A stretch of DNA of 64,000 bases from Roseimicrobium sp. ORNL1. Lineage in GTDB: Bacteria; Verrucomicrobiota; Verrucomicrobiia; Verrucomicrobiales; Verrucomicrobiaceae. Positions within the stretch are counted from its first letter, which is position 1; the number at the start of each line of letters is the position of its first letter. The stretch lies in assembly GCF_011044495.1 (NCBI RefSeq), contig NZ_CP049143.1:2666001-2730000 (forward strand), read 5' to 3'. The notes below the pieces were generated by a model. That model searched no databases, had not been told where the DNA came from, and was given only the letters and a program-made list of their open reading frames with translations. This document shows positions 2,005 through 13,572 of the stretch, in pieces. The position numbers and the translations under genes are program-made.

Positions 2005-3078
2005 TCAGGCTGGCATCACTTGGAACCGGGTGCAAACGGCCGTCATGTCACAGGCGGTCGTATACGTCCCATCACCCGCGAAAAGCAGGGCCACTGCACG
2101 CCCCGACTCGGAGCCAAGGATGAACGATCCCGAATCACCCGGGCTGCTGAAGGGTCCACCATCGCCAAGCATCAGCACACAACCGTCAAAGGTGGCAACC
2201 AGCGGGTTTGCTTTGGTCCCATAGTTGACCTGCACACCGCTCACGTTGGTTGCGACCACGCTCCCCTGGGTCACCCCCGTCGTGCGGCCAGACTTGGTGA
2301 CAGCCATGCCGGGTATCGGGGAGCCAATCTGCGCCACGTAATTTGGGATGCCAAACATCTGTCCCGGAACGGTATGGAGATTCGTGTTGTCGAGAGTCGC
2401 GATGGCGGCATCCATCTTATTGCGCGGTGTCACACCATCGGACGGAAAAAGAATGGGCTCATAATCTGAAAGAGTGGCCACCAGGTCATTCACAGACGCA
2501 CCGAACTGTTGGCCGATGTGGCTGCCAAGTGGCCGTCTGTTCGTATCTGCCAGTACGTGGTTGTTGCTGAGCATGAAGTAGGTATCGCCCCGTTTGACCA
2601 TGCCGCCCAAAGTGCCTACATAGTTGACTCCAGCCGGGGCGATCTGTATCCCTCCCTGGAGCGGACGACGGCGCGCCTGATGCTCGGGCGGTGTCGTCTG
2701 GGCAGTGGCCCCCGCGGCTGCCTTCTTGGCTTTCGTAGCCGCCTTCTTTTTCGCGAGCGCTTGCTGGATGGGGAGTCGTTCAATGTCAATCTGCACCCCA
2801 TCAAAGGACTTGCTGGTGAGAGCGGGCACTTTCGCTCCCAGGTCCCGCTTGTCGAAGACATAGACTTTAATGACAAATGTCTTCCCTGAGATTTTGCCAT
2901 TCTTGGTTCGCAAGCCCACACCCGTGGCATGCACGTTCGTGAGCGGCGCTTTGCGCGTAAAAGCCGCGGTTCCGCGTTTTGAGAGGGCAGAGGCGGTCAC
3001 GGATTCATTGAGCTGCCCTTCCAGAAGGGCTCCACGATAGGATTCGAGTGCCTGCAAGGCTTCAGCGTAAGAGGCCAT
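2005..3078 (-). CDS. Chymotrypsin-fold (S1-like) serine protease
   Basis: This is a 357-residue endopeptidase-like protein. A full catalytic triad can be read: His174 in SNNHVLAD, Asp223 in KMDAAIATL and Ser316 in PGDSGSF. Residues 1-100 form a separate mixed alpha/beta region, joined by a Lys/Ala-rich linker (about 108-125) to the protease domain. There is no signal peptide or Tat motif, so it is probably cytoplasmic, unlike most secreted trypsin-like enzymes. The ATG at 3078 starts MASYAEAL. A 92-residue gene follows after 4 bp. The upstream gap to the divergent gene at 3442 is AT-rich (3190-3235) and could hold promoters for both. The substrate is unknown. Confidence 0.8.
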   Translation of the reverse strand: MASYAEALQALESYRGALLEGQLNESVTASALSKRGTAAFTRKAPLTNVHATGVGLRTKNGKISGKTFVIKVYVFDKRDLGAKVPALTSKSFDGVQIDIERLPIQQALAKKKAATKAKKAAAGATAQTTPPEHQARRRPLQGGIQIAPAGVNYVGTLGGMVKRGDTYFMLSNNHVLADTNRRPLGSHIGQQFGASVNDLVATLSDYEPILFPSDGVTPRNKMDAAIATLDNTNLHTVPGQMFGIPNYVAQIGSPIPGMAVTKSGRTTGVTQGSVVATNVSGVQVNYGTKANPLVATFDGCVLMLGDGGPFSSPGDSGSFILGSESGRAVALLFAGDGTYTTACDMTAVCTRFQVMPA

Positions 3079-5131: not shown

Positions 5132-6013
5132 ATGATGATGCGCTTGCGGATTTCTTACTATCCAGACATCACGCAGCATCGCACGCCGGAAGAGGTGCGA
5201 ACTGCCGTGGTGACATTTGCAGAGGCGCTGGCACGGCAAATGACGCAGTTGCGAGGCTCGGATGTCGCCATTGACGTCTTGCCGGTGGTCTCCGTTGCAG
5301 AGCAGACCGCCATGATCGCCGAGGGGCGGTGTGAAATCGCCCTCATCAAACCCTCGTCCTACGTGCTGGCGCACCGACGCAATGCGCGCGTTCTGCCTGC
5401 CGCAGTCGCTCTGCGTGTGATCGATGGGACTCCAGGCGATCGCTATTTTGCGCAGCTCTACTGTCATGTGGACTCCGGCTTTCGCTCGCTGGATGACGTC
5501 GCGGCTCGCTGCCGTCTGCCAGAGCCCAAGGACCGCCCGTCCATCGGCTTCGGCGATCCCTTTTCCACTGCGAATTTCCTCGTGCCCGCCGCGCACCTCG
5601 CCGACAAGGGCCTGTTCCCCTTCACGCGCTTCCGCCGCAGTGAATACTTCGGCGGTCACGATGGGGTCGTCCGCGCAGTCTACGCGCGCTCGGTCGATAT
5701 CGGCGCGGGTCACGACGGCGTGATCGTGGACCTGGCCCGGCAGCCCGGTTTCGCGGATGCTGCGGAGAAGCTCATCCGCCTGGACCGGGTTTTCATTCAC
5801 AGTGATCCCGTAGCCGTGCTCGTCGATGATGCCACGCGTGCCCAGCTGACGGAAAGCATGGTGACCATCGCCGCCCGCCCGGAGATCAAGCATGCACTGG
5901 ACGTCTTCTGGGGCGCAGTCGTGGGCCTGGCTCCGACCACTCATGAGAATTACGCCTCCGTGGAGCACGCCATCACCCGCCTGGGCATTCCCGAAAACGA
6001 CTTGCTGGTTTAA
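5132..6013 (+). CDS. PhnD-like phosphate/phosphonate-binding-fold protein, no signal peptide
   Basis: This is a protein of about 293 residues of the type II periplasmic-binding fold used by phosphate/phosphite/phosphonate ABC transporters. The N-terminal strand RLRISYYPDI, a TPEEVRTAVVTFAEALARQ helix and FGDPFSTANFLVP fit that group. No signal peptide is visible and no permease or ATPase gene is nearby, so a transport role is doubtful. A cytoplasmic sensor or accessory role for the oxidoreductase operon is more likely. Three consecutive ATGs (5132, 5135, 5138) follow a TTG at 5105, and I chose the first ATG because family similarity begins just after it. The next gene starts 6 bp after the stop. 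Confidence 0.7.
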   Translation: MMMRLRISYYPDITQHRTPEEVRTAVVTFAEALARQMTQLRGSDVAIDVLPVVSVAEQTAMIAEGRCEIALIKPSSYVLAHRRNARVLPAAVALRVIDGTPGDRYFAQLYCHVDSGFRSLDDVAARCRLPEPKDRPSIGFGDPFSTANFLVPAAHLADKGLFPFTRFRRSEYFGGHDGVVRAVYARSVDIGAGHDGVIVDLARQPGFADAAEKLIRLDRVFIHSDPVAVLVDDATRAQLTESMVTIAARPEIKHALDVFWGAVVGLAPTTHENYASVEHAITRLGIPENDLLV

Positions 6014-6019
6014 CTCCGT

Positions 6020-6418
6020 ATGTTGGACGCATTTCTGGCACTGTCGCGATTGGTCACGGGCGTACGGCCCCTGGATCCCGTGCTGGCGGAGAGCCTGCTC
6101 ACCCGCCTGATAAAGGCCGGCCTGGAGACACGAGTCCTCAAGGCCTGCGAAGTCCTGGCTCCGCTGGAGGCCGGCGAAGACGGCGAAGAGAAGGCGAAAG
6201 CCCTCCTGCTCCAGGACACGGTGATGTGCGAGACGGTGACCTTCATCGTCCAGCTCTGGTATCTCGGCGAGCTCAGCTTCCCGGCCAAGCTCGAGGATCG
6301 CTTGCCCGGCGAGCCGGAGCATGCCTTTCGCGGCCTGCTCTGGCCGCTCATTCACGCCCACCCGCCAGCCCTCTCCGGTGGTTACTTCGGCCACTGGACA
6401 TACCCACCTGACAACTGA
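6020..6418 (+). CDS. FAD-dependent sorbitol dehydrogenase-type small subunit (FAD-SLDH-like)
   Basis: This 132-residue protein resembles the small subunit associated with membrane FAD-dependent sorbitol/gluconate dehydrogenases. It has an early helical FLALSRLVTG, a central TVTFIVQLWYLGEL and the diagnostic C-terminus SGGYFGHWTYPPDN. No signal peptide or twin-arginine motif precedes it, whereas classical small subunits are exported. Its stop overlaps the ATG of the GMC oxidoreductase by one base (TGATG), so the two products are probably made together and form a complex. The 7-bp spacing from the upstream gene supports one operon. Confidence 0.7.
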   Translation: MLDAFLALSRLVTGVRPLDPVLAESLLTRLIKAGLETRVLKACEVLAPLEAGEDGEEKAKALLLQDTVMCETVTFIVQLWYLGELSFPAKLEDRLPGEPEHAFRGLLWPLIHAHPPALSGGYFGHWTYPPDN

Positions 6419-8088
6419 TGTCCGCGCCCTCTCCCGAATACGACTACGACGTCATCATCATCGGCGCTGGAGTGTGTGGCGCCATCGCCGCCGCGGAGCT
6501 CGCCTCCTGCGGTCGCGTGCTCATCCTGGAGGCTGGTCCCGATACCGCCGACCGGATGGACCTGGTCGCCAGTTATGCCAGGGCGGTGAATAAGAATCCA
6601 GGCTCGCCCTATAGAGATCCGGACGGAGACAAGTACGCGCCGACGCCGGACAATAGCGAGGGGTACTATGTGAAGGATGGGGCCGATTCCTTGCCCTTCA
6701 AGAGCACCTACGTGCGGCGCTCCGGGGGATCGACCTGGCATTTTCTTGGCAATACACCACGCTTCGTCCCGTCGGATTTCATGCTGTGTGACCTCTATAA
6801 GAAGGGGGTGAACTGGCCGCTGCGCTACGATGACCTGGAAGAGGACTACTGCCGCGCCGAGGAGGCCATGGGCGTTTCGGGAGACCATGACCAGCTCCAA
6901 GGGCTGCTGCAGGCGAAACGTTCCCGCCCATTCCCCATGACTCATGTGTGGGAGTCCTACAGTGATCGCGTGATCGGTCAGCGCCTGAACGGCCTGGTCA
7001 TCGATGGCGTGAAGGTGGAACTGCTCAGCACCCCGCAGGCTCGCAACTCCCGCCCCTACGATGGACGCCCCGCATGCGCCGGTAACAGCAGTTGCGTCCC
7101 CATCTGCCCCATCCAGGCGAAATATGATGGCACCGTGCACGTGCGCAAAGCCGTGGCTGCCGGAGTGGAGGTGCGCACTCGCTCCGTCGTCTTCAAGCTG
7201 GAGGCTGACGACACAGGCAAAATTCAGCACGTCCATGTGCGCAGTTACGAAGGGGTTGATACGGTATTCACGGGCCGCATCGTCGTGCTCGCGGCTCACG
7301 CGATCGAGAGCGCCCGGCTGCTCCTGCTTTCCGAGCTTCCCAACTCGAGCGGACTCATCGGGTGCAATCTCATGGATCACCTGCAGGGCGCTGTCGTCTG
7401 CCTCGCCCCGGAGCCCGTCTACGGTTTCCGCGGTCCGCCCACCACTTCCGGGATAGACCACTTTCGCGATGGCGAGTTTCGCAGCGAGCGGGCTGCGTTT
7501 CGCCTTTCGCTCGGCAATGATGGCTGGGGCCGCACCGCCTCCCCGGCGGATGTGCTCAAAAAACTCACCGATGCTGGCATCGTCGGCAGTCGGATGCGCG
7601 AGCTGGCCGAGTGGCGCCTGGTCCGGCAGCTTCGCTTCTCGTTTTCCACAGAGATGCTCCCCAAAACACACAACCGGATCATTCTCGATCCCGACCCCGA
7701 GCAGAAAGACGCGCTCGGCCTGCGCAAGCCGCGGATTCATTTTGAGATGGATGCCTACAGCCGCGCGGGCATGGAGCACGCAGGCAAGGTCTGCGAAAAA
7801 ATTTTCAAGCATTGTGGCGGCGACGAGGTCACGATCACCGTGGCCCGCGATGGCTACAACGCCGCCGGCCACATTATGGGCACGCTGCGCATGGGCGAGA
7901 AGAAGAGCGACTCGGTCGTGGATCGCGATGGACGGGCACACGATCACTCCAACCTGTTCGTGCTTGGCGCCAGCGTCTTTCCCACCTGCGGCACCGGGAA
8001 TCCCACCCTCACCGCCGTCGCGCTCACTTATCGCAGCGTGCGCGCCATCAAGGCCGCGCTTGCCCCTGAATCCGCCGTCCTCTCATGA
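6418..8088 (+). CDS. GMC-family FAD-dependent oxidoreductase
   Basis: This is a 556-residue glucose-methanol-choline type flavoprotein. The dinucleotide-binding motif GAGVCG is at residues 16-21, followed by ILEAGPD. A Cys-rich GNSSCVPICP near residue 222 is typical of the sugar/polyol dehydrogenase branch. The C-terminal GMC domain carries HIMGTLRMG and GTGNPTLTAVAL, which supply the active-site His and Asn region. The substrate is probably an alcohol, aldose or polyol, but it cannot be read from sequence. The gene overlaps the preceding small-subunit gene by 1 bp and the following ferritin-like gene by 4 bp (ATGA), so it sits at the centre of a coupled operon. No signal peptide is seen. Confidence 0.88.
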   Translation: MSAPSPEYDYDVIIIGAGVCGAIAAAELASCGRVLILEAGPDTADRMDLVASYARAVNKNPGSPYRDPDGDKYAPTPDNSEGYYVKDGADSLPFKSTYVRRSGGSTWHFLGNTPRFVPSDFMLCDLYKKGVNWPLRYDDLEEDYCRAEEAMGVSGDHDQLQGLLQAKRSRPFPMTHVWESYSDRVIGQRLNGLVIDGVKVELLSTPQARNSRPYDGRPACAGNSSCVPICPIQAKYDGTVHVRKAVAAGVEVRTRSVVFKLEADDTGKIQHVHVRSYEGVDTVFTGRIVVLAAHAIESARLLLLSELPNSSGLIGCNLMDHLQGAVVCLAPEPVYGFRGPPTTSGIDHFRDGEFRSERAAFRLSLGNDGWGRTASPADVLKKLTDAGIVGSRMRELAEWRLVRQLRFSFSTEMLPKTHNRIILDPDPEQKDALGLRKPRIHFEMDAYSRAGMEHAGKVCEKIFKHCGGDEVTITVARDGYNAAGHIMGTLRMGEKKSDSVVDRDGRAHDHSNLFVLGASVFPTCGTGNPTLTAVALTYRSVRAIKAALAPESAVLS

Positions 8089-9341
8089 GCCAAAAATCAA
8101 CGCACGACCGGTCTGAAGTGCTCACGCTCCTGAGTGAAGCGTGTGAACTCGAGCATGGCCTCGCCTGCTCCTATCTCTACGCCGCCTTCTCGCTCAAGCA
8201 GGACCTCAGCGAGGGAGGGTTGACCTGGGATCAACTCCAGAAAGTGCGCATGTGGGCCGCGCAGGTTTTCCACGTCGCTGCCGAGGAGATGCTGCATCTC
8301 GCCCAGGCTTGGAACCTCCTCTCCGCCATGGGCGGCATGCCCTGGTACGGCCGCCCCAATTTTCCCCAGCCCTGCCAGTACTACCCGCTCAACCTGCCCC
8401 TGGAGACGCGGCCCTTCGGTCTTGAGACGCTGGACCGTTTCATCGCGTTTGAAACGCCGCATGATCCCAATGCCAAGCCGCTTGAGCCAAAGCCCGGCGA
8501 CCCCGCTCCGGATTTCCGAACGGTCGGCGAGCTCTACGGCCTCATCGCGGATCGCATCAAAGCGTTGCCCGAGAAGTTTCTCTTCATCGGCGACCCGGCC
8601 AATCAGGTCGACCGTACCCTCGTGGATTTTCCGAACCTCACCGTCGTCCGCGACAGGGCCAGTGCGCTCCACGCCATTCAGGTGGTGACCGAGCAGGGGG
8701 AGGGCACCGAGGGCGAGCGTGACGGGTCTCACTACTTCGTCTTCCGCCAGATTCGCCGCAGCTTCCTGGAGGAATCGCTTCGTGCGGAACAGACCGGCAC
8801 CGTCTTCGCTCCGGTGCGGCCGTGCATCAGCAATCCGGTGGCATTCCCACATCCTCAACTGGGGGCTCCGGGGGCGAACCGCATTTCAGATCCCTACACT
8901 GAGGAGGTGGCTGACACCTTCGACTCGGTCTACATTCTGATGCTGCGACTCCTGCAGCACGTGTTCGACAATGCCACGAGCGATCGCCCGCTCCTGCAGA
9001 CCTTTGCCGCTGGTGCCATTCAGCTCATGGCTGCGGTTATCAAGCCGCACGGCGAGGCCCTCGCCCTCCTCCCGGCAGGCGAGCGGCACTACGGGGCCGC
9101 CACGGCCGGGCCGCCCTTCACCATTGGTCGTCACGTGCCTCTGCCGCAGCTTCCCGGACCGGCATTGCAGGTCGCTCGCGAGAAGTTGGAACAGCTGCAA
9201 AAGCGTCTCGCTGACCTCGCCGAAGCACCGCAGGCTCCGGCTCAACTTCGCCGTGCCGCAGCCAATATCGCGCAAATGGAATTCACGCCAGGGAAAGCCA
9301 ACCCCTTCTCACATCACCACCACAAAAACCGTGAGGAGTGA
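8085..9341 (+). CDS. Ferritin-like (VioB/iminophenylpyruvate-dimer-synthase type) protein
   Basis: This is a 418-residue protein whose N-terminal half matches the ferritin-like domain found in VioB/RebD-type enzymes. It has ELEHGLACSYLYAAFSLK near residue 21, then a second metal-ligand helix VFHVAAEEMLHLAQAWNLL near 64, with the ExxH-type pairs expected of a diiron site. The later part (about 270-400) is helical, and the tail ends in SHHHHKN. In violacein-type pathways such proteins act on imine intermediates, but most genomic homologues have no known substrate. The 4-bp overlap with the GMC oxidoreductase suggests a shared pathway. A redox or radical step on a small metabolite is inference. 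Confidence 0.75.
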   Translation: MSQKSTHDRSEVLTLLSEACELEHGLACSYLYAAFSLKQDLSEGGLTWDQLQKVRMWAAQVFHVAAEEMLHLAQAWNLLSAMGGMPWYGRPNFPQPCQYYPLNLPLETRPFGLETLDRFIAFETPHDPNAKPLEPKPGDPAPDFRTVGELYGLIADRIKALPEKFLFIGDPANQVDRTLVDFPNLTVVRDRASALHAIQVVTEQGEGTEGERDGSHYFVFRQIRRSFLEESLRAEQTGTVFAPVRPCISNPVAFPHPQLGAPGANRISDPYTEEVADTFDSVYILMLRLLQHVFDNATSDRPLLQTFAAGAIQLMAAVIKPHGEALALLPAGERHYGAATAGPPFTIGRHVPLPQLPGPALQVAREKLEQLQKRLADLAEAPQAPAQLRRAAANIAQMEFTPGKANPFSHHHHKNREE

Positions 9342-12400: not shown

Positions 12401-12721
12401 ATGAGTACCGTGACCCGAAAAAAGCGTTACAGCAGTGATTTTAAAACCCATGCCGTGGAGTTGGTCCGCATGGGCAAGAGTGTGTCCGAGGTGGCTGAAG
12501 AACTCGGCATTGGCACTGGCATCCTTTACCGTTGGACCCGGTCCCAAAGGCAGCCGGTGCAGCTCGTAGGCGCAGACCTCCGAGCCGGAGGCGAGGAGGG
12601 CGAAGCCAACGAGCTGCACCGGCTGCGGCGTGAAATCGCCAACCTGCGTCTGGAGAACGACATTTTAAAAAAAGCCGCTGTCATCCTGGGCACGCCACAA
12701 CCGTCCAAACCCGCGAAATGA
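12401..12721 (+). CDS. IS3-family transposase OrfA
   Basis: This is a 106-residue helix-turn-helix protein that binds the IS ends. KRYSSDFKTHAVELVRMGKS followed by VSEVAEELGIGTGILYRWTR is the classic HTH_Tnp_1 pattern. A leucine-zipper-like heptad region follows (LHRLRREIANLRLENDILKKA, with Leu at regular spacing) for oligomerisation. The stop overlaps the OrfB ATG by 4 bp. A run of seven A residues near the 3' end could allow -1 frameshifting into OrfB. Confidence 0.92.
   Translation: MSTVTRKKRYSSDFKTHAVELVRMGKSVSEVAEELGIGTGILYRWTRSQRQPVQLVGADLRAGGEEGEANELHRLRREIANLRLENDILKKAAVILGTPQPSKPAK
12667..12674 (+). promoter_or_regulatory. Probable -1 ribosomal frameshift site
   Basis: The heptamer A7 followed by G lies in the OrfA codons TTA AAA AAA GCC. 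After slipping back by one, the new frame is open and joins the OrfB frame 15 codons before its ATG. This is the usual IS3 route to the OrfAB transposase. Confidence 0.6.
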
Positions 12722-13572
12722 TCCTGCAACTCCAGCGCCAGACCGGTGGGAGTGTGCGCAAGATCTGCGACGTCCTGGAGCTGCCCCGCAGCAGCTTTTA
12801 CCATGTGGCGAAGTCTGCCTCCAGCCATGAGCAAGACGCTCGTCTGGGTGAACTCATCGAGGAGATCTTCAAACGCAACCGGCACCGCTATGGCTACCGC
12901 AGGATCCATGAGGAACTGCGCGACCATGGCATCGTGTGTGCACCCTCCAAGCTGCGCCGCATCCTCAAAACACGGGGCCTCAAGGCCATCCAACCCAAGA
13001 ACTACCTGCCCAAAACCAGCGATGGCCGGGCAGACCGTCCCTCTGCCAATCTGTTGGCCCAGCAGCCTGTGCCGCAGAAGCCCGGCGAGGCCTGGGTCGC
13101 AGACATCACCTTCATTCCCACTACGGCAAACTGGCTCTATCTGGCCGTGGTCATGGATTTGGGCTCGCGTCGCATTGTGGGCTGGAGTCTGGCGTCACAC
13201 ATGCGTGCAGAACTCGTCGTCCACGCCTTGGAACAAGCCCTGCAAACCCATCCCAAAGCCAGCGGCATTGTCTTCCACAGCGACCGGGGCAGCCAGTATG
13301 GCAGCACGGCCTTCCGTTCCGTGCTCACGCGTGCCGGCCTGCGCCAGAGCATGTCGGGGCGAGCCAACCCCTATGACAATGCGTGGACAGAGTCCTTCAT
13401 GGGTACCCTCAAGCGCGAGATGCTTCAAGGAGGCCGCTTTGAAGACCTCACCGATGCACGACTGGAACTCTTTGAGTACATCGAGGGCTACTACAACAAC
13501 CAGCGCAAGCACTCCGCCATCGGTTACCTCACCCCCAATCAGTTTGAGACCCAATCCAGAAACCTAAACTAA
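12718..13572 (+). CDS. IS3-family transposase OrfB (DDE integrase domain)
   Basis: This 284-residue catalytic subunit starts with an HTH_21-like region (RHRYGYRRIHEELRDHGI, about 55-72) and continues into an rve/integrase core. The DDE triad is visible as Asp129 (WVADITFIP), Asp189 (FHSDRGSQYGS) and Glu225 (NAWTESFMGTLK), with the 35-residue D-E spacing typical of IS3. The C-terminus YNNQRKHSAIGYLTPNQFE is also characteristic. The length is full and no disruption is seen. Confidence 0.93.
   Translation: MILQLQRQTGGSVRKICDVLELPRSSFYHVAKSASSHEQDARLGELIEEIFKRNRHRYGYRRIHEELRDHGIVCAPSKLRRILKTRGLKAIQPKNYLPKTSDGRADRPSANLLAQQPVPQKPGEAWVADITFIPTTANWLYLAVVMDLGSRRIVGWSLASHMRAELVVHALEQALQTHPKASGIVFHSDRGSQYGSTAFRSVLTRAGLRQSMSGRANPYDNAWTESFMGTLKREMLQGGRFEDLTDARLELFEYIEGYYNNQRKHSAIGYLTPNQFETQSRNLN

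Follow-up and report, generated by a model that had tools for sequence, protein, structure and literature searches.

Glucose and fructose dehydrogenase complexes are periplasmic enzymes that give electrons to a cytochrome, and they are used in biosensors. The described systems closest to the one reported here are the glucose dehydrogenase (GDH) of Burkholderia cepacia, which depends on flavin adenine dinucleotide (FAD) and consists of an alpha, a gamma and a trihaem beta subunit, and the membrane-bound fructose dehydrogenase (FDH) of Gluconobacter. We analyzed a stretch of 64,000 nucleotides of Roseimicrobium sp. ORNL1 (NZ_CP049143.1, positions 2,666,001-2,730,000; hereafter the window, to which the positions of its genes are relative). 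It contains a four-gene operon that combines relatives of the catalytic and small subunits of these complexes with a ferritin-like protein of the PF12902 family and a PhnD-like substrate-binding protein. Our favored explanation, held with middling confidence, is that the operon encodes a cytoplasmic sugar or polyol dehydrogenase that passes electrons via a 3Fe-4S cluster to an O2-reacting diiron protein.

The four open reading frames (ORFs) are co-directional and their products all match Pfam families above the family cut-offs. The first gene (5132..6013, +) encodes the PhnD-like protein of 293 amino acids (aa), an optional member of the set (PF12974, Phosphonate-bd, 9.4e-26). After a 6-bp gap follows the gene for the small subunit (6020..6418, +; 132 aa), which belongs to the FAD-SLDH family (PF12318, 8.3e-7) and is a relative of the GDH gamma and FDH small subunits. 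The third gene (6418..8088, +) starts with a 1-bp overlap (TGATG) and encodes a GMC flavoprotein of 556 aa of the FAD-GDH/FDH catalytic type (GMC_oxred_C, 1.3e-22; GMC_oxred_N, 1.6e-7). The fourth gene (8085..9341, +) overlaps the third by 4 bp (ATGA) and encodes the ferritin-like protein (PF12902, 418 aa, 1.7e-37). The ORFs and families confirm the original prediction of four tightly spaced co-directional genes, as well as its 6-bp gap and 4-bp overlap, while its “1-bp spacing” turned out to be an overlap of 1 bp. The predicted absence of export signals was also borne out, since no N-terminal signal is visible by inspection in any of the four proteins.

Loci with this arrangement (type A loci) were gathered via the ferritin-like gene, by a pattern-based scan of genome contigs (nine loci) and from plasmid records. 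Nine distinct intact type A loci were obtained (the window, L005, L011 and L014-L019), L005 and L066 being near-identical Methylobacterium plasmid copies that were counted as one. Two further loci (L012 and L013) were excluded from the counts, as the 5' part of the GMC gene and any small subunit are missing. Both look like the same DNA, with a shared sequence that starts at an identical point within the GMC gene and different upstream sequences; an ISL3-type transposase gene lies upstream of the cut GMC gene in L012. In all nine distinct intact loci, whose hosts belong to the window's own phylum, Planctomycetota, Bacteroidota and Pseudomonadota, the genes for the small subunit, the GMC flavoprotein and the ferritin-like protein directly follow one another in this order. 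Because the ferritin-like gene served to find the loci, the recurrence of the GMC and small-subunit genes is informative and the counts of other partner genes are descriptive.

The locus closest to the window is that of Aquisphaera insulae (L011), which has all four genes in the same order, with identities of 71 % (PhnD), 45 % (small subunit), 58 % (GMC) and 60 % (ferritin-like) at the amino acid level. The GMC proteins of both loci are sisters in the tree (97/96). Third codon positions have changed most between the two operons and the gene order is retained, so the four-gene arrangement is more than chance. Hymenobacter sp. BT559 (L015) carries the triad as well as a PhnD gene, here located 3 bp behind the ferritin-like gene. 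The four predicted partners thus do co-occur in other genomes (Aquisphaera and Hymenobacter), and the proposed coupled, signal-less redox unit recurs. Its core, in contrast, is a triad to judge from these loci, with PhnD as an optional addition, since the latter is present in only three of the nine.

When the genome of the window (7.96 Mb in a single contig) was searched with the ferritin-like protein, the only match was the protein itself, and 288 sampled genomes of the phylum, this one included, gave three matches at E <= 0.001, the other two being distant (3e-17 and 7e-6). Searches of the families of matches (150, 201, 45, 248, and 244 genomes; cut-off 1e-3 for the first set and 1e-40 for the other four) yielded only known loci and distant ferritin-like genes. 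In viral contigs, 24 stretches matched a pattern, none of which encodes a relative.

The best solved relatives of the GMC flavoprotein found by phmmer are B. cepacia FAD-GDH (6a2u_B, E 2.7e-95) and Gluconobacter FDH (7w2j_A, 3.5e-85). According to the structural description in PMC6719666, Cys212, Cys218 and Cys222 of the B. cepacia enzyme bind the 3Fe-4S cluster and Cys213 forms a disulfide with the gamma subunit. C220, C226 and C230 of the window protein (codons within 7075..7107, +) align with the three cluster ligands, and the disulfide cysteine is replaced by Ala221. The His/Asn pair is retained as H485 and N528. Both the cluster cysteines and the pair are kept in all 20 GMC proteins compared. 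The position of the alpha-gamma disulfide is Ala or Thr in 9/9 triad GMC proteins and is also variable among other members. This loss would fit a cytosolic location, an argument that is weak because PMC6719666 describes the disulfide cysteines as not conserved in the wider family.

The AF2 model of the small subunit has a pLDDT of 73.8, with the last 33 residues poorly predicted. Its four top Foldseek matches in the PDB are the FDH small subunit (8jej, 8k6j) and GDH gamma (8hdd, 6a2u), with probabilities of 0.91-0.99 but E-values of 0.2-0.9. By inspection, no twin-arginine (RR) motif occurs in the first 40 residues of the small subunit of the window and its eight relatives, and a hydrophobic N-terminus is seen in none of the nine triad loci. 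Likewise, no ORF with at least two CXXCH motifs lies within 4 kb of the nine triads (for L016 and L017, 1.3-1.7 kb downstream of the GMC gene were covered). A gene with three CXXCH motifs adjoins the GMC gene in four of the 20 GMC loci (L072-L075), whose small subunits have an RR motif (L072, L073, and L074) or a hydrophobic start (L075). Three other loci (L062, L064, and L076) encode a GDH-type GMC protein with a CEGY motif, on a branch that has no ferritin-like gene; in L062 and L076 it stands beside genes for a small hypothetical protein, an aspartate kinase and an aminotransferase.

The ferritin-like protein matches PF12902 with 129.9 bits (cut-off 22.3). Its AF2 model (pLDDT 83.9) is most similar in the PDB to 3hl1, a ferritin-like protein of Caulobacter (Z 22.9 over 261 residues), followed by ferritins and bacterioferritins at Z of about 14; such values may reflect an arrangement that is common among helical bundles. 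E23, E68, H71, and E206 are identical in 20/20 aligned PF12902 proteins and H216 in 18/20; following the ferritin pattern, these five residues are predicted to form a diiron carboxylate site. The five scanned relatives of 651-676 aa (L006, L051-L054) are all fusions of the ferritin-like domain with Fer4_19 and CDGSH domains, and the stretches covered around them contain no GMC gene. That CDGSH and ferritin-like domains can be associated is already described in PMC5859297. By Pfam, the PF12902 proteins of L007, L009, L049, and L050 contain no such iron-sulfur fusion. A gene on a Nostoc plasmid (L007, 10920-12815) encodes a single protein that combines a LodA_C match with a ferritin-like domain, and it adjoins a radical S-adenosylmethionine (SAM) gene and a second ferritin-like gene.

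We found the pairing of GMC and ferritin-like genes again in a second lineage (type B loci: Rhizobium, Sinorhizobium, and Persicobacter). In Rhizobium etli 8C-3 the order is GMC, ferritin-like, small subunit. Identities of the type B proteins to those of the window are 35 % for the GMC and 28 % for the ferritin-like protein. For the Rhizobium-type ferritin-like gene, 133 plasmid records gave a match (E <= 1e-60), and for the GMC gene 98 (E <= 1e-150). Among the 60 rows listed for each, 43 plasmid records are common, and in 43/43 a distance of 86-118 bp separates the two genes; these records represent few independent events, as many are close relatives, and the small subunit was looked at in R. 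etli 8C-3 only. The repetition of the pairing in a second lineage argues for a functional link. The R. etli locus also contains a glucoamylase of the GH15 family and an inosose dehydratase. On a Persicobacter plasmid (Bacteroidota; L084, 5055-15089), the same order of GMC, ferritin-like and small-subunit genes is followed by an aldos-2-ulose dehydratase propeller, a glycogen-debranching enzyme, a GH63-like and an iolE-like gene. These sugar-type neighbors point to sugars as substrates. The Persicobacter cluster as a whole looks like a keto-sugar pathway. In Cupriavidus, a small subunit, a split GMC gene and a further GMC piece precede the ferritin-like gene. In the tree, the type B GMC proteins group with Azospirillum (100/99), but their branch is long and its placement unsure. 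R. leguminosarum GmcA (PMC7105596) was considered as a described member of this lineage and left unused: it is 550 aa long versus 622, and the word “ferritin” is absent from the available part of the text.

The PhnD-like protein has a copy at the same place in Aquisphaera (the 71 % match) and a copy in Hymenobacter that is 43-44 % identical. The starts of these two relatives align with the start of the window's protein, and no leader is visible in any of the three copies. Of the nine genomes that contain L011-L019, only two carry a close PhnD-like copy, in both cases beside the triad. In the class to which Aquisphaera belongs (297 genomes), no copy other than its own passes 1e-30. Plasmid records gave six PhnD-like matches with 24-30 % identity, none covering 80 %. 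The protein scores 60.9 with the NCBIfam PhnD model (TIGR03431, cut-off 261.1), shows weak similarity to PhnD and to phosphite and arsenic-related binding proteins, and keeps the GDxxST and GH motifs in an alignment to 3p7i. A neighboring phosphonate transporter, which would have spoken against the original prediction, was not found: the nearest PF00528 permease match in this genome lies about 390 kb away. A role in phosphonate uptake was rejected on this ground; the protein may instead bind a ligand in the cytosol.

In the mechanism we favor, the operon would encode a soluble counterpart, located in the cytoplasm, of the FAD-dependent glucose, fructose and sorbitol dehydrogenase complexes. 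The small subunit would stabilize the GMC flavoprotein, which would oxidize a sugar, a polyol or a similar alcohol and pass the electrons from FAD to its surface 3Fe-4S cluster. The PF12902 diiron protein would be the electron acceptor, replacing the membrane-bound trihaem cytochrome c of the periplasmic enzymes, and may reduce or activate O2 to give water or peroxide, or oxidize the keto-sugar or a second molecule. In the cytosol, the soluble PhnD-like protein could bind a ligand bearing a phosphate, phosphonate or other oxyanion group and act in the pathway as sensor or carrier. The main argument for an electron flow from the GMC to the ferritin-like protein is that the diiron-type domain occurs in two settings, in one chain with an iron-sulfur module or as the product of a gene next to that of a flavoprotein whose 3Fe-4S cluster lies at the surface. 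Of the “cytoplasmic pathway for an odd metabolite” proposed in the original prediction, the location agrees with the lack of visible signals, but the sequence points to an FAD/3Fe-4S/diiron pairing and to a sugar- or polyol-type substrate.

Several observations weigh against this mechanism. The nine triad GMC proteins are not recovered as one clade (two changes; 16 % of the bootstrap trees with one). GMC and small-subunit genes without a ferritin-like gene, with a staphylococcal-type nuclease (SNase) gene upstream, occur in Streptomyces yangpuensis, S. lavendulae and Kitasatospora, and GMC genes with neither a ferritin-like nor an SNase gene in Roseibium, R. leguminosarum CB782 and Sinorhizobium garamanticum (the last by annotation only), so other acceptors are possible. 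Conversely, ferritin-like genes without a GMC gene are found in 7/7 more distant loci, in the plasmid loci L006, L007, L009, and L010 and in Streptomyces L086, and the excess of 35 ferritin-like over GMC records in the second lineage means that some of those ferritin-like genes may be unpaired as well. A leader and a cytochrome do not always go together either, because in Azospirillum (L065) an annotated cytochrome C gene (fewer than two CXXCH motifs by scan) lies beside a small subunit without a visible leader. Finally, no glycosidase was found among the scanned part of the neighbors of type A triads. The partnership between the GMC and ferritin-like genes is therefore strong but not exclusive on either side. 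Separately, a Streptomyces plasmid (L061, 5577-8611) has thermonuclease, small-subunit and GMC genes in a row with no ferritin-like gene.

An alternative is that the operon makes a small natural product, with the GMC protein oxidizing an intermediate, the ferritin-like protein coupling or rearranging the product as in the pair VioA/VioB, and the PhnD-like protein binding a phosphonate product or precursor. The PF12902 family includes VioB (iminophenyl-pyruvate dimer synthase), and to our knowledge the VioB/RebD type is the only assigned function in the family. The VioB model (TIGR04492) does match the ferritin-like protein (3.1e-21), but with 74.9 bits against a cut-off of 1250 and only over positions 602-939 of 1003; a VioB identity was rejected and the “VioB-type” label of the original prediction did not hold. 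Biosynthesis-type genes are found in L018 (non-ribosomal peptide synthetase (NRPS)-like, radical SAM/SPASM and flavin amine oxidase), in L019 (two radical SAM genes) and in the more distant locus of a Bradyrhizobium plasmid (L009, 7860-14297), where ferritin-like, radical SAM and tryptophan 7-halogenase genes are close together, near C25 and S8 peptidases. Such neighbors are restricted to a minority of loci, however, and the four window neighbors scanned with Pfam include no oxidase, NRPS or polyketide synthase. We consider a biosynthetic role unlikely.

Less likely again is an offence or defence island in which the triad generates a toxic oxidant such as peroxide and the attached genes encode further effectors. 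Attached genes are of three kinds in the type A loci: an animal haem peroxidase gene lies 10-26 bp upstream of the triad in L014, L016, and L017, a gene for a phospholipase D (PLD) or trypsin-PLD protein adjoins it in L011, L015, and L018, and an SNase gene stands beside it in L005 and L019, as well as being present in the truncated L012/L013. Trypsin-like proteases have been named as effectors of bacterial conflict systems (PMC8195603). The distribution is patchy as well, with a close copy only in the window's own genome among the 288 of the phylum. On the other hand, the window operon has no adjacent haem peroxidase, SNase or trypsin/PLD partner, the partner counts carry the descriptive limit given above, and a known anti-phage system was rejected: no PADLOC model matched the PhnD-like protein, the small subunit or the ferritin-like protein, and the GMC protein gave only a 30-residue match at 5e-4. 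The Methylobacterium-type SNase was found in nine plasmid records, five with and four without an adjacent small subunit and GMC gene, and the L019 SNase gave one plasmid match, a fragment with no triad. Of 36 records with a relative of the haem peroxidase, the one inspected, in Gemmatirosa, shows no triad in the surrounding 6 kb, and relatives of the trypsin/PLD proteins (three of the 27 matching plasmid records looked at) are located among hydrolase genes with no triad.

Directly behind the triad of L011 (11219-20321) lie genes for the trypsin-PLD protein, two further trypsin-like proteins and a large AAA_16/STAND-like ATPase. Three conjugative rhizobial plasmids (L057, L058, and L059) carry hydrolase clusters without a triad (trypsin-PLD, caspase-like, S8, M12, patatin, and amidase), which possibly form an undescribed effector cluster. 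In the window itself, a trypsin-like protease gene (2005-3078, -) is located 2 kb upstream of the operon; it has a GDSG motif and a Nal1_C match below the cut-off. By eye, its N-terminal part slightly resembles the central domain of the trypsin-PLD proteins encoded in L011 and L015, but tblastn gave no link. Downstream of the operon (12401-13572, +), there is a gene pair that by eye looks transposase-like, with an integrase-like sequence in the second frame.

The favored dehydrogenase could be extended to a sugar-fuelled, cytosolic O2-activating unit (FAD, 3Fe-4S, and diiron, without NAD(P)H, quinone, or cytochrome) that would be induced for oxidative attack or defence, with lineage-specific effectors (haem peroxidase, nuclease, and phospholipase/protease) and, in one branch, a PhnD-like ligand sensor; we give this speculative version a small chance only. 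Equally improbable is that the operon serves ordinary catabolism of sugars or polyols, with no role for the ferritin-like protein beyond peroxide protection or iron storage. This reading is suggested by the ferritin fold of that protein, by the closeness of the GMC protein to GDH/FDH and by the 37-38 % identity of the latter protein to GMC proteins whose genes adjoin annotated sugar-dehydrogenase small subunits and cytochromes, but it is at odds with the recurrence of the PF12902 pairing in two lineages, with the large C-terminal part of the ferritin-like protein outside the ferritin bundle and with the lack of a sugar transporter or kinase among the scanned window neighbors.

In the open-access literature, covered by title and abstract (subscription papers were outside the scope), we found no description of the pairing of GMC and ferritin-like proteins or of the gene set. 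The parts of the operon can nevertheless be compared with known systems. The PhnD-like protein shares the PF12974 family and the GDxxST and GH motifs with the binding proteins PhnD, PtxB, and AioX, but has no visible signal peptide and no nearby PF00528 permease, and it sits in a redox operon. VioB has the PF12902 domain in common with the ferritin-like protein but differs by its partial match and a score far below the cut-off. The Fer4_19-CDGSH fusions (L006, L051-L054) have a PF12902 domain that is 31-38 % identical, with the same diiron ligands except H216 in L052; unlike in the triads, the iron-sulfur domains are fused and no GMC gene was found nearby. The type B loci contain the same three families in adjacent genes, but with another gene order, sugar-catabolism neighbors and a GMC protein on a separate branch. 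The triad shares the GMC fold, the His/Asn pair, the three 3Fe-4S cysteines and a small subunit of the FAD-SLDH type with B. cepacia FAD-GDH and Gluconobacter FDH. It differs from them by the lack of a visible Tat/Sec signal and of the alpha-gamma disulfide cysteine, and by a PF12902 diiron-type protein in the place of a multihaem cytochrome c gene (none within 4 kb). Judged from sequence, the gene set probably encodes a variant type of GDH/FDH complex that has its own putative electron acceptor. If true, this would be a natural cytoplasmic form of GDH/FDH with a diiron partner and a new coupling of sugar oxidation to O2, and a part of the PF12902 ferritin-like family would gain a function.

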